Source: a virus
Direction: 5' to 3' (one strand)
Length of the DNA stretch: 20,526 nt
Virus record (IMG/VR): IMGVR_UViG_3300027686_000049
Coordinates: 1-20,526 of that record
Shown here piece by piece: positions 13,381-17,584 of this stretch; position 1 is the first letter of the stretch, and each line of letters opens with the position of its first letter. The notes beneath the pieces were generated by a model. It searched no databases and had not been told where the DNA came from. It saw nothing but the letters and a program-made list of their open reading frames with translations. Made by a program: the position numbers and the translations under genes.

Positions 13381-14847
13381 TTATGCCTTATACCCATTAC
13401 CATCATTTGGCAACGCTGGTATGTTCATATTAGCATGATCTTCAGCTATACCATCTAGTACACGCTGTAGATCTGATTCATCTTTGATCATCAATCTCGC
13501 AACTTCGTTATGCATGTAATGCACAAACCCATCATGTGGTACTGCTCCTAGTGCGGCAGTAATCAATGCTAGTTCCTGATGCTTGTCTCTTAGATCAAAC
13601 TTCTTTTCATATTCAATATGGAATTCATCTGTTGGTTCAACTCCTTGAAGATCAAACCACATGTTCCACATTTTCTTTTCTGCTGACTCTAATACACCAG
13701 CAGTATCTGCTAGTTTAGCGTTCAGCATTTCCTTTTCCACTTGTAGTGAAATTCCTGACTGGGCACCCTTCTTAGCTTTAATAGCTGTAAGGTGACTCAA
13801 TTCATCTATAGCATCTACTTTTTGTTCAATGCTTCTTAGTATGCCATCAACACTGGCACCTGTTGGTTGTAGCAAATAGGGCGCAGTATTAGTATCTTCT
13901 GGGATAGTAATAATAGCACCTGCTCCACCTGAAATTTCAGCAGCGGGTTCGGCCACAATACTTGGATGACTACTTAGTCTTATAGTGGCATACAATTCCG
14001 ATGACAAGTTGTATATTTCTCTTTGCAGATCACATACATCACCCACTGCACTTGTACCCACTCCCTTGTGGAAACTCTTATCTGTTTGTACATGTATAAA
14101 AGGAACATATCCAATAGGATTAGGATATTCTTCATAGTTCAATATTTTGCCATATTCCAGGCTCAAATTGTCTCTCTGTGAAGCAGGTTCACTAATTTGA
14201 TTTCCATCATAGTGGTGAGCTCCGCCTTTTGCTACTGTGTATACTTCTATCATATCAGGATGCCAACAACGAACTACATCATAATCTTCATATGACTCAT
14301 CAATTACTTTTACATAATCCAATGTTTTTTGTCCGTTAGTTTTCTTACTGTAACTCCAGTCTCTTACATTAGTAGGACTGTAAAGTGTTGAGTATGTTCT
14401 GATATCTTCTGCTATTTCTTGTGCTACTGTTTCTACTTGGTATGCTGGACGGTCCATGCCAATCCATGCTCCACCGTAAATAGTAACCATGTCGTTAACT
14501 TCTCTCATGAAGTCATCTAGTGTTGAATAGTCTAAATCTGCGTTACTTAAAAATTGCATTGCAAACGGGTTATCTACTAGTACACCCATAGTTCTTTTTG
14601 GTGGGTTCCTGAATAGAAAACTTCTGTATGCATCAACGATTTGACGCACATGATTTTGTAATGCTGTGTCTACTAGCCTTTGTTGGTATTGGTTACCAGG
14701 TGCTTGATCTTCTGCAATGTATTTGCGTAAGTATGCACCATCTCTATATTCTTCTGCACCCATGTAACTACGCATGTAGTAGTCCCAACGATACGCATAT
14801 TCTTGATATCCAGGGTGTATAGAACTTAATTGTTTTGATGTTTTCAT
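13381..14847 (-). CDS. Portal protein
   Basis: This 488-residue protein sits between the large terminase and the scaffold. The N-terminus (SIHPGYQEYAYRWDYYM) and the stretch RQIVDAYRSFLFRNPP, with MGVLVDNPFAMQFL after it, are characteristic of the DUF4055-type portals I know from marine and enterobacterial siphoviruses. A stem/clip region contains GVGTSAVGDVCDLQREIYNLSSELYA, and a later SGISLQVEKEMLNAKLADTAGVLESAEKKMW (in pieces) matches the tunnel-loop and long alpha-helix of portals. Twelve copies would form the vertex channel through which DNA is packaged and later ejected. The ribosome binding site GGAGG lies 9 nt upstream of the ATG. Length is normal for the family. Confidence 0.9.
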   Translation of the reverse strand: MKTSKQLSSIHPGYQEYAYRWDYYMRSYMGAEEYRDGAYLRKYIAEDQAPGNQYQQRLVDTALQNHVRQIVDAYRSFLFRNPPKRTMGVLVDNPFAMQFLSNADLDYSTLDDFMREVNDMVTIYGGAWIGMDRPAYQVETVAQEIAEDIRTYSTLYSPTNVRDWSYSKKTNGQKTLDYVKVIDESYEDYDVVRCWHPDMIEVYTVAKGGAHHYDGNQISEPASQRDNLSLEYGKILNYEEYPNPIGYVPFIHVQTDKSFHKGVGTSAVGDVCDLQREIYNLSSELYATIRLSSHPSIVAEPAAEISGGAGAIITIPEDTNTAPYLLQPTGASVDGILRSIEQKVDAIDELSHLTAIKAKKGAQSGISLQVEKEMLNAKLADTAGVLESAEKKMWNMWFDLQGVEPTDEFHIEYEKKFDLRDKHQELALITAALGAVPHDGFVHYMHNEVARLMIKDESDLQRVLDGIAEDHANMNIPALPNDGNGYKA

Positions 14848-14879
14848 CTATTTATTTCCTCCATTGAGTAAATTTAAAC

Positions 14880-14891
14880 TGTCCTAGGACA
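14880..14891. repeat. 12-bp perfect palindrome TGTCCTAGGACA
   Basis: A perfect dyad lies 33 bp upstream of the portal start codon, between the portal leader and the plus-strand small RNA promoter. It could be a protein-binding site or a chance palindrome. The rest of 14848-14978 has no convincing minus-strand promoter; it holds the portal ribosome binding site and imperfect repeats CATTA/TAATG (14904-14929). Confidence 0.45.
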
Positions 14892-14978
14892 TTGCCATAA
14901 GGCCATTAACTGAGCAATTGTTAACTAATGTTATTTATCATCTGAGAACCAACGCCTTATCCAGGAAACTTTAAAAGG

Positions 14979-15007
14979 TTGACAAGTGTAGAAAGTTGTT
15001 GTATAAT
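14979..15007 (+). promoter_or_regulatory. Perfect sigma-70 promoter, opposite strand to all genes
   Basis: TTGACA (14979-14984), a 17-bp spacer and TATAAT (15002-15007) match the sigma-70 consensus exactly. Transcription would start near 15014 and run into the short unit ending at the terminator at 15056-15099. No protein gene on the plus strand follows, and the flanking genes both lie on the minus strand. Confidence 0.9.
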
Positions 15008-15013
15008 ATAGTT

Positions 15014-15099
15014 AATGTTGAGTAACAGAGGTACATGCGACTGTATGTGCCAACTAACTCCTATATGGTTTCTCCTATGAAGCATATAGGAGTTTTTTT
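15014..15099 (+). ncRNA. Candidate phage small RNA (about 86 nt)
   Basis: A perfect promoter, about 86 transcribed bases and a strong intrinsic terminator make a self-contained plus-strand unit in the gap between portal and large terminase. The RNA would fold into hairpin 1 at 15030-15051 (9 bp including two G-U pairs, loop GACU) and the terminator hairpin at 15056-15094 (12 bp, 15-nt loop). The terminator loop holds UUUCUCCUAU (15069-15078), an anti-Shine-Dalgarno-like sequence complementary to several ribosome binding sites in this genome. The unit ends 4 nt before the stop codon of the large terminase, so it is barely antisense to it. An alternative is a leaderless 21-codon ORF (15015-15080, encoding MLSNRGTCDCMCQLTPIWFLL without the stop), which has no ribosome binding site and ends inside the terminator loop; I consider this less likely. 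I recognise no known RNA family. Confidence 0.72.
15056..15099 (+). terminator. Intrinsic terminator of the plus-strand small RNA
   Basis: A 12-bp perfect stem (AACTCCTATATG with CATATAGGAGTT) with a 15-nt loop is followed by a T-run (15093-15099, the first two T pairing in the stem). On the minus strand it has no T-run downstream, so the terminator is directional for the plus strand. Confidence 0.9.
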
Positions 15100-15103
15100 A
15101 TGG

Positions 15104-16336
15104 TTAAAATGCACCATACACTTTAGCTGTACGCTGTGTATATTCTTTACGCAATGGATACAGGTAACTTACCATATAACCCCAACTATCATTAACACCA
15201 TCATATCCATGTTCAGCATCTTTAATAGGAATGCTTGTTCCTGGCTTGTACTGTTGTTTGCTAATAGCTGTAATAGTTTCTCTGCAAGTTGGATCCACAA
15301 ACAAGTGTCTGCTTCCTTCTGCATTACACATCAACCTATTGCCTGCGTTTATTCTGTCTTTAACTAGTGGATGACTTCTTGGTGCTCTAAGTTCCATGCC
15401 CCATTGCTTTACTATAAGGTGATCAGTGTTGTCTCTAGCACTAGTACGCCTTTGATTACCAGCAGGATCAGCATATAGGAATATCTTCTTATTGGGATAC
15501 TTTTCTTTTATTGCACTGCATATCTCATCAGTATTGGTATTGTTTAATACTATCTCATCAAATATATGTAAGCCATCTGTGTACTTGGCGGCTACGATTG
15601 CGGCCATTTTACTTACATTGAAGTCTAAGCCTACATGCAATTGGTTAGGTACAACTTGTTCAAACTTACGAATGTTAGCTGGCTTGAATGCATAGTATAT
15701 AACATTACCACTTGATTGGAAACTTGCTTCGTATTCTTGTAAGTATGTTTTTTGATCTAAGTCTCTTTTGGCAGCTTCTATTTCTTCTTCAGGTACATTA
15801 CCACCTTCTGCTGTAGTATATTGATGACTGCTCCAACCATCTATAGTGTGGCCTTGCTGATATAAATCATAGAACCAGTTGCCCATACCTTGTGGTGTAC
15901 TAATAAACAATGCACTACCTTGTCTATCACTTAGTGTTGGTCTAATAATGTCTGTCCATACTTTTGAATCATTAATAAAGAATGCACACTCATCTAATAC
16001 CACAAAGTCACAACTAATACCACGGATACTATCTCCAGCATCAGCACTACGCAATGTAATACTACTGCCATTAACTAGAAGTATGCTTAGTTCTGATTCA
16101 TTAATCTTCTTAACCCAGCGTTTGCTTATTAGTTGGCTTTTAAGTTCATCCCATATAATGCTTTTGGCTTGTCTATAACTAGGAGCAACATACATTACTT
16201 TCTGATTAGGCATTCTAGCTGCTCTAGCCATTTCCCATATACTCAAGAAACTTTTACCAAAGCGTCTACCCGCACTAACTACTCTAAATCTATTAGTGTC
16301 TGCAAATATCTGTGCTTGTGGTTTACTTAGTGGCAT
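15104..16336 (-). CDS. terL: Terminase large subunit
   Basis: This 410-residue DNA-packaging motor has an N-terminal ATPase and a C-terminal nuclease. Walker A is SAGRRFGKS (21-29, Lys28), Walker B is FVVLDE (111-116, Asp115/Glu116), and the coupling motif is FISTPQG (144-150). Nuclease residues fit Asp238 in GLDFN, Asp290 in YADPAG and the DGVNDS segment (379-384) near the C-terminus, all expected to bind divalent metal. It pumps DNA through the portal encoded next door. The length is slightly short but complete. It overlaps the upstream gene by 14 nt, and the small terminase lies about 1.7 kb upstream with five genes between, which is not the usual adjacent arrangement. Confidence 0.95.
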   Translation of the reverse strand: MPLSKPQAQIFADTNRFRVVSAGRRFGKSFLSIWEMARAARMPNQKVMYVAPSYRQAKSIIWDELKSQLISKRWVKKINESELSILLVNGSSITLRSADAGDSIRGISCDFVVLDECAFFINDSKVWTDIIRPTLSDRQGSALFISTPQGMGNWFYDLYQQGHTIDGWSSHQYTTAEGGNVPEEEIEAAKRDLDQKTYLQEYEASFQSSGNVIYYAFKPANIRKFEQVVPNQLHVGLDFNVSKMAAIVAAKYTDGLHIFDEIVLNNTNTDEICSAIKEKYPNKKIFLYADPAGNQRRTSARDNTDHLIVKQWGMELRAPRSHPLVKDRINAGNRLMCNAEGSRHLFVDPTCRETITAISKQQYKPGTSIPIKDAEHGYDGVNDSWGYMVSYLYPLRKEYTQRTAKVYGAF

Positions 16337-16538: not shown

Positions 16539-16829
16539 TTAATATTTTCCAGATTTTGTATCTGTAATTACTGGTTCTGTCCTGGTGTTGGGCTTGGCAG
16601 CTATGGGTTTAGCTGGTAGGTTGTTGTTACTTCTTGAGTTAACATACAATCCAAACCATGCTGCACCTGCGCCTACTATAACACTAATAAACCCTGCTTG
16701 TGCGTTGTTAGGATCCTCAAGAGCCATAAACCAATTGATACTTTGATAAAATACTATCATGTATGTAATGATTAAGGCTCTTGGGATAATTCTCCAAGCA
16801 TCTAAATGTTGTGGAGTTAGTCCACTCAT
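16539..16829 (-). CDS. Two-helix membrane protein, holin-like candidate
   Basis: This 96-residue protein starts in a TAATG overlap with the preceding gene. It has two hydrophobic segments, about 15-36 (IPRALIITYMIVFYQSINWF) and 44-63 (AGFISVIVGAGAAWFGLYVN), joined by an acidic loop, and a Pro/Lys/Thr-rich soluble tail (PAKPIAAKPNTRTEP). Short N-terminus, two membrane helices and a charged C-terminus are typical of small class II holins. A lysis role is inferred from topology only, with no endolysin in the window; the acidic-loop/amphipathic arrangement could equally be an unrelated small membrane protein. Confidence 0.6.
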   Translation of the reverse strand: MSGLTPQHLDAWRIIPRALIITYMIVFYQSINWFMALEDPNNAQAGFISVIVGAGAAWFGLYVNSRSNNNLPAKPIAAKPNTRTEPVITDTKSGKY

Positions 16830-17584
16830 TAGTTTGCTTCAAATATTAATTGAAAGTCTGCTGCAACTGCTACATCAGCATCGCCTAATCTCTTAGCACG
16901 GAATTCAATGATTCCACCTGCTGGTATCTGAAAAGGATTTGGTAATGTATATGTTGCTGGTGAGCCTATACCCACAATAGTAGTTACTACTTGTCTAAAT
17001 GGTGCGCCTGAATCTGGTGCTTTGTTTAGCCAAATACTTACTTGTGCTGGTCCTGTTGCACTCATCATAAAAGTAGTGATGTATGCATTAGTATCTGCTG
17101 GTACTGCAAAGCTGGCTGACTGTTGTTGTCCTTCACCGGCTGCAATTTGGTATAATACAGCATTATCTGCGTTATTGCTAATACTGATAGCACCTGTGTT
17201 TACACTGTTACCTGAGCCTACTTTGTTTACAAATACATTGTTAACATGTCTAAATGCTGCAACAGTAACTACTGCTGTTGTACCATTAAGGTTAACATTT
17301 TCTTCAATTAATGCACCGTTAGCATCAATACCTTTGATCTTAACTCTTCGTGCATGGCCTGAACCACTGTTAGCATCACTAGTGCTGCTTGATTTAATTT
17401 TTAATATTTCTGCACTACTAAGTAGATTTCTGATTCCACCTTGAGTACATATTGTTTCTAATGCTGCACCAACCGCTGGGTTGATACCACTTGTTCCTTT
17501 AAGACTTAGTTTGTCTATTCTTCCAGCTGATAACTCTAATCCACTTGGTAGAGTCGTAACCTGGTTTCCACTTGACATTGGCAT
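16829..17584 (-). CDS. Probable virion structural protein, beta-rich
   Basis: This 251-residue protein starts with a strong AAGGAG ribosome binding site 7 nt before the ATG. It is Ala/Asn/Ser/Thr/Gly-rich, low in Lys and Cys, and reads as a beta-sandwich: SSSTSDANSGSGHARRVKIKGIDANG (in pieces), LIEENVNLNGTT, a FRHVNNVFVNKVGSG strand, AAGEGQQQSASFAVPADTNAYITTF (in pieces) and PFQIPAGGIIEFRAK. This pattern is widespread in uncharacterised virion proteins of marine phages. It could be a capsid decoration, a short fibre or a head spike. Context between terminases gives no more. No catalytic motif is seen. Confidence 0.6.
   Translation of the reverse strand: MPMSSGNQVTTLPSGLELSAGRIDKLSLKGTSGINPAVGAALETICTQGGIRNLLSSAEILKIKSSSTSDANSGSGHARRVKIKGIDANGALIEENVNLNGTTAVVTVAAFRHVNNVFVNKVGSGNSVNTGAISISNNADNAVLYQIAAGEGQQQSASFAVPADTNAYITTFMMSATGPAQVSIWLNKAPDSGAPFRQVVTTIVGIGSPATYTLPNPFQIPAGGIIEFRAKRLGDADVAVAADFQLIFEAN

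Follow-up and report, generated by a model that had tools for sequence, protein, structure and literature searches.

A predicted small RNA gene with a putative ribosome-site-masking loop in the terminase-portal spacer of a phage clade

The virus record IMGVR_UViG_3300027686_000049 is a 20.5-kb fragment that was analyzed at its full length of 20,526 nucleotides (hereinafter, the window). The source is an uncultured, probably marine phage, with a portal protein that is ~34% identical to the portals of the Pelagibacter phages HTVC026P, 111P, 112P and 202P. A scan of genome contigs for a host returned a single contig, a phage-like fragment within a Bacteriovoracaceae MAG, which is uninformative as a host clue and probably results from mis-binning. 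All large ORFs of the window lie on the minus strand, including the genes for the large terminase subunit (terL) and the portal, and the spacer between these two genes of the late operon contains a compact series of features on the opposite strand:

13381..14847, minus strand, portal gene (phrog_145, E 6e-57), the downstream neighbour of the RNA unit in the late operon
14979..15007, plus strand, sigma70 consensus promoter TTGACA-17-TATAAT (TTGACA at 14979-14984, TATAAT at 15002-15007)
~15013/15014..15099, plus strand, predicted small RNA of ~86 nt, antisense to all genes (folding energy and z-score)
15016..15027, plus strand, short 5' hairpin UGUU-GAGU-AACA with a GAGU loop, carrying the GUUGAGUA string that is common to relatives at the equivalent place after the promoter
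15030..15051, plus strand, second hairpin of 9 bp with a GACU loop (from the fold)
15056..15099, plus strand, intrinsic terminator, with a 16-bp interrupted stem (12 + 4 bp, 15056-15094) followed by a T-run
15069..15075, plus strand, UUUCUCC anti-Shine-Dalgarno motif, with UCC within the apical loop
15104..16336, minus strand, terL (phrog_2, E 2e-48; PF03237), the upstream neighbour in the late operon

The promoter is the only exact match to TTGACA-17-TATAAT in the window, with 0.01 matches expected from dinucleotide shuffles. The start of the RNA is placed ~7 nt past the -10 box and its end is taken from the T-run, with the terL stop codon located 4 nt past the predicted 3' end. The region 15013-15099 folds with a minimum free energy of -32.5 kcal/mol, compared with -15.9 +/- 3.1 kcal/mol for shuffled sequences (z -5.4), and is more stable than all 200 of the 200 shuffles. 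Thus, the perfect promoter, the RNA region of ~86 bases and the terminator that a previous sequence-only reading had located between portal and terL, on the strand opposite to the genes, are all present. The terminator stem had been given as 12 bp in that reading but these base pairs are just the lower part of the 16-bp stem, the apical loop of which bears the anti-Shine-Dalgarno motif. By these sequence features, an own promoter and an own intrinsic terminator, the spacer holds a predicted independent transcription unit. The UUUCUCC apical loop, the conservation of the unit among relatives and its inverted orientation in some of them, which are described below, are additions to the previous account.

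The unit contains no conserved ORF. An ATG ORF (15035-15367) crosses the terminator and continues into the antisense strand of terL, and small ORFs on either strand were rejected as the product of the unit because they are not conserved. ARAGORN detected no tRNA or tmRNA at the RNA unit, and a search with the Rfam 15 covariance models, including that for the c4 antisense RNA, gave no match at the gathering score, with none in a permissive scan either, in line with the earlier impression that the RNA belongs to no described family. A direct DNA similarity search in phage records produced only four marginal matches to phages of Gram-positive bacteria, all limited to promoter-like sequence.

The terL-portal spacer of the window differs in length from that of more distant phages. 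The gap does not exceed ~130 nt in HTVC111P, HTVC026P and HTVC202P. The same is true of most of a set of ~80 additional contigs whose portals share ~35-55% identity with the query set; exceptions, with larger gaps despite low portal similarity, are L019 (313 nt), L254 and L255. In the clade of the window, defined by portals at least 59% identical, the gap ranges from 259 to 2338 nt and, as judged from this comparison, the insertion is specific to the clade. The insertions hold accessory ORFs that often come with sigma70-like promoters of their own, plus an RNA unit adjoining the portal; nearly all contain such a hairpin-plus-terminator unit, in most cases preceded by a separate sigma70 promoter. 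In the window, the insertion takes its minimal form, with the RNA unit alone and no cargo ORF.

Several other elements are found in the same region. The cargo of L009 (1171-2118) and L005 (1613-2563) includes an accessory gene of ~315 amino acids with a DAQHR-like stretch resembling ParB/DGQHR proteins, for which a Pfam search with the L009 copy gave no match. A second short promoter-hairpin-terminator unit with CUCUCC in a stem-loop is located at the terL-proximal end of the insertion in L158 (4922-5040; contig G002). The portal leader (14860-14960, minus strand, in the window) is strongly conserved in the clade, independently of the adjoining RNA unit, and consists of GATGATAAATAAC..TAATTAAC, a short hairpin and then GTCC..GGAC; an ATAAATA element in this leader may be a late promoter element.

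The comparison with relatives, most of which are assembled viral contigs representing partial genomes, shows that the unit is kept in both orientations. Promoter, structured RNA and terminator are antisense to the portal in the window, L005, L018 and L009, and sense to the portal in L003, L006, L015 and L016. L088, L090 and L187 have TTGACA-17-TATAAA in the antisense direction; L089, L091 and L177 possess an antisense hairpin and terminator with a poor promoter; the orientation tally also places L088-L091 antisense to the portal, and a good promoter is absent in L084 and L089. The GUUGAGUA string follows the promoter by ~7-12 nt in the window, L003, L005, L006, L009, L010, L011, L014, L017, L018 and L021. 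A scan of the collection for a promoter followed by GUUGAGUA finds full units only in the clade of the window; the remaining matches are leaders or coding sequences of unrelated phages. In some unrelated phages (L041, L052, L054, L066, L071), a sigma70 promoter is followed within ~20 nt by TGTTGAGTA ahead of other genes, which may reflect a common 5'-leader motif. The retention of promoter, hairpins and terminator in related phages is the outcome on which the sequence-only reading had staked its view of a self-contained small RNA gene. One relative, L013 (contig 3300044219_002721), contains two portal regions in opposite orientation and is probably a chimeric assembly.

Because the orientation is not conserved, a conserved role as an antisense to the late mRNA or as a leader is ruled out and a trans-acting product is indicated; the antisense direction in the window appears incidental given that the unit runs in the sense direction in several relatives. 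It is therefore improbable that the unit functions as a cis-antisense RNA, or through transcriptional interference, to tune the terL-portal late transcript. The RNA does oppose the late genes in the window, L005, L018 and L009, where it shows full complementarity to the terL-portal spacer. However, the units of L003, L006, L015 and L016 have the sense orientation, the RNA of the window misses both the portal ribosome site (about 14850-14862) and the terL gene, and what is conserved is the loop motif rather than the overlap.

UUUCUCC is present in 9 of the 13 non-redundant lineages, compared with 0.11 expected from shuffles, and UUCUCC in 10 of the 13 (0.28 expected). In most folds, UUUCUCC occupies an apical or internal loop, and in the window and L084, it lies inside the terminator hairpin; CUCC is unpaired in nearly all folded units that bear the motif, less clearly so in L003 and L018. 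The folds and the motif enrichment thus reveal an accessible, conserved seed of the kind that characterizes trans-acting base-pairing sRNAs. The sequence flanking CUCC is conserved as (CG)ACAUU(A)UGUAUUUCUCCA among hairpins whose stems are unrelated, and its complement, UGGAGAAAUACAAUGUCG, comprises a Shine-Dalgarno sequence, a spacer, AUG and the second codon. CUCC is missing from the units of L014/L021 and L085-L087/L094; in the antisense RNAs of L010, L011, L014 and L017, which are also without CUCC, the loop complements AGGA(U/A)...AUGAGC, again a Shine-Dalgarno sequence and a start codon. Over 16 units, a Shine-Dalgarno sequence followed at 4 to 11 nt by AUG is found on the complement strand in 9, compared with 1.5 expected (P 1.6e-6, a value that, like those for the motifs in general, assumes independence and is inflated by shared ancestry), and on the RNA strand in 0; the contrast between the two strands does not depend on this inflation. 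Thus, complementarity of the seed to the initiation region holds across the 16 units, with the loop of the window complementary to the Shine-Dalgarno part and not to the Shine-Dalgarno sequence plus AUG. Outside the clade, the matches to UUUCUCC that were examined are, for the most part, coding sequences or ribosome sites that belong to the opposite strand, with no family members in other phages among them; the presence of ordinary ribosome sites in this set fits the motif being their complement.

In group B (L010, L011, L017), the CUCC hairpin is located in an apparent 3' UTR of the cargo operon and has no clear promoter of its own. In the same phages (L010:2700-2880 and the equivalents in L011 and L017), two RNAs converge on a shared two-way terminator, namely, an antisense RNA that has a sigma70 promoter and an anti-AUGAGC loop, and a sense CUCC-loop hairpin after the cargo operon.

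The loop could instead be part of a protein-binding or sponge RNA, in which arrays of GAGU-type hairpins together with the CUCC loop would bind a protein of the host or the phage, and the repeated C-GARU-G or similar loops in L003, L005, L006, L009 and L015 are compatible with such a function. We assign this explanation a low probability because a protein site does not predict a loop that complements Shine-Dalgarno, spacer and AUG far above chance on the complement strand only, and because the number of hairpins varies from one to several.

Compensatory changes on both sides of the stem affect 12 of the predicted pairs in six groups of homologous units, and a broken cell occurs in four pairs; these counts are modest, reflecting the small size of the groups (2-3 sequences each). 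In L088, L090 and L187, neither the promoter hexamers nor the CGAACGACATTATGTATTTCTCC loop varies, and the spacer and the stem do; between L088 and L090, changes in the stem are matched on the partner strand and the CGAACGACATTATGTATTTCTCC loop is identical. This pattern of substitutions indicates that the RNA structure is under selection. Accidental juxtaposition or decay of a promoter-terminator pair left behind after the loss of a cargo gene is hard to reconcile with these compensatory changes, the invariant loop and the maintenance of the unit across portals that are 59-89% identical, and is accordingly very unlikely, notwithstanding that the neighbouring cargo genes of relatives have sigma70 promoters of their own and that the window has no cargo ORF. 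The least credible reading is that the conserved string works on the opposite strand, where it would serve a tiny ORF for ribosome binding: the complement does read as Shine-Dalgarno, spacer and ATGTCG in L083, L017, L088 and L090, but the resulting ORFs, of 2-43 codons, are conserved neither in length nor in sequence, the window, L003, L005 and L015 have no suitably spaced AUG, and the promoter and terminator sit on the RNA strand.

Taken together, the comparative evidence makes it reasonably probable that the unit is a gene in its own right for a small phage RNA that acts in trans, a moron-like but RNA-only insertion between terL and portal, with a loop that masks ribosome binding sites. Since the loop complements the ribosome site, the RNA probably blocks translation of other messages. 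Under the proposed mechanism, the host RNA polymerase with sigma70 would transcribe the RNA early in infection, independently of the late operon, and the intrinsic terminator would end the transcript. The RNA would display the UUUCUCC loop atop a long stem, and the loop would pair with Shine-Dalgarno sequences of the GGAGAAA type and, in many relatives, with the Shine-Dalgarno sequence together with the start codon, such that ribosome loading on target mRNAs would be prevented. The self-contained small RNA gene of the sequence-only reading is well supported, and its suggestions for the role (a switch, host control or a decoy) give way to a more specific proposal, the masking of ribosome binding sites in trans. 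A more speculative extension, to which we attach distinctly less than even likelihood, is that the clade reserves its terL-portal spacer for RNA-only cassettes, where lineage-specific anti-start-site RNAs diversify like an arsenal and silence messages of the host or of competing phages early in infection.

With regard to the targets, the best duplex in the window (-17.6 kcal/mol) involves the start region of the gene at 16829-17584 (Shine-Dalgarno context ggagaaacaat-ATG) and consists of the 8-bp match GGAGAAAC and 5 further pairs. This gene was rejected as a specific target because RNAs of other phages reach equal or better scores at this site (G010, -21.6). For the RNAs of G003 and G006, the best duplex within the own genome is formed with the first cargo gene of the cassette that carries the RNA. 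A swap test with ten phages, represented by partial contigs, showed no preference for own genomes (mean residual +0.9 kcal/mol, permutation P 0.94), so that the target is likeliest to be a host message, a phage gene not covered by the partial contigs or a large number of messages that carry GGAGAAA sites. The likeliest targets appear to be messages of the host or, in some relatives, the cargo gene that comes first in the own cassette.

A second, larger structured RNA unit is found in relatives between the tail genes and the early accessory genes: L156:5307-5560 (plus strand), L170 near 8521 (minus strand; contig G007) and the right end of L159 (G002, 23072, plus strand), with a weaker relative in contig G008 (5934, minus strand). 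It spans ~220 nt, with the core UAUGAUGACAGACGAAACACA..AUGUUCCGACUCCUUUC, a terminator, a fold z-score of -6.9 and, in two copies, a 12/12 promoter, and has no match in Rfam. The window ends before the corresponding position.

To our knowledge, few phage sRNAs are known outside the model phages of enterobacteria, and literature searches brought up no account of an RNA like this, either in pelagiphages or in phages of this group. Among bacterial sRNAs, RNAIII and RsaE of Staphylococcus, RepG of Helicobacter and CcsR of Rhodobacter pair through C-rich loops with G-rich Shine-Dalgarno sequences or leaders. The same mode of pairing, through a C/U-rich hairpin or terminator loop, is described for the mycobacterial B11 and 6C RNAs (PMC10470900). 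These C-rich-loop sRNAs are chromosomal, whereas the RNA described here is phage-encoded and its UUUCUCC is often extended over the complement of the spacer and AUG; no sequence relation between the phage RNA and the bacterial ones was found.

Among phage RNAs, lambda OOP is a cis-encoded antisense to its target. Both OOP and P22 sar are encoded in this manner, unlike the present unit, the orientation of which flips between relatives. OOP, sar and lambda PreS resemble it in being small phage RNAs with promoters of their own; sar prevents the initiation of translation via base pairing, and PreS targets the host dnaN (PMC12197685). The c4 antisense RNA of P1 and P7, an immunity switch directed at the ant mRNA, is likewise a phage RNA with loops that are thought to complement the region around the ribosome binding site of the target, blocking translation (PMC12197685). 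In contrast to c4, the present unit comes without an ant target or an Rfam match and has its own terminator, a variable orientation and a different structure.

Phage morons are described as coding regions (definition quoted in PMC4378225). The present unit is similar to morons in having its own promoter and terminator between genes that are adjacent in relatives (PMC4378225), and related phages lack it at the corresponding position, where most of the gaps are ~130 nt or less. It is not classed as a moron because it encodes no protein. Comparative sequence analysis alone thus yields a conserved, structured, orientation-independent RNA gene with an anti-ribosome-site loop. If the proposed role is correct, an accessory cassette inserted in a phage structural operon can consist of nothing but an RNA gene, and small phages could have a protein-free means of silencing messages; should the clade indeed maintain an arsenal of such RNAs, these would be an RNA counterpart of early host-takeover proteins. 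In its apparent mode of action, the candidate belongs to a known kind, the phage antisense sRNAs, and its unusual aspect would be the existence of an RNA-only accessory cassette.
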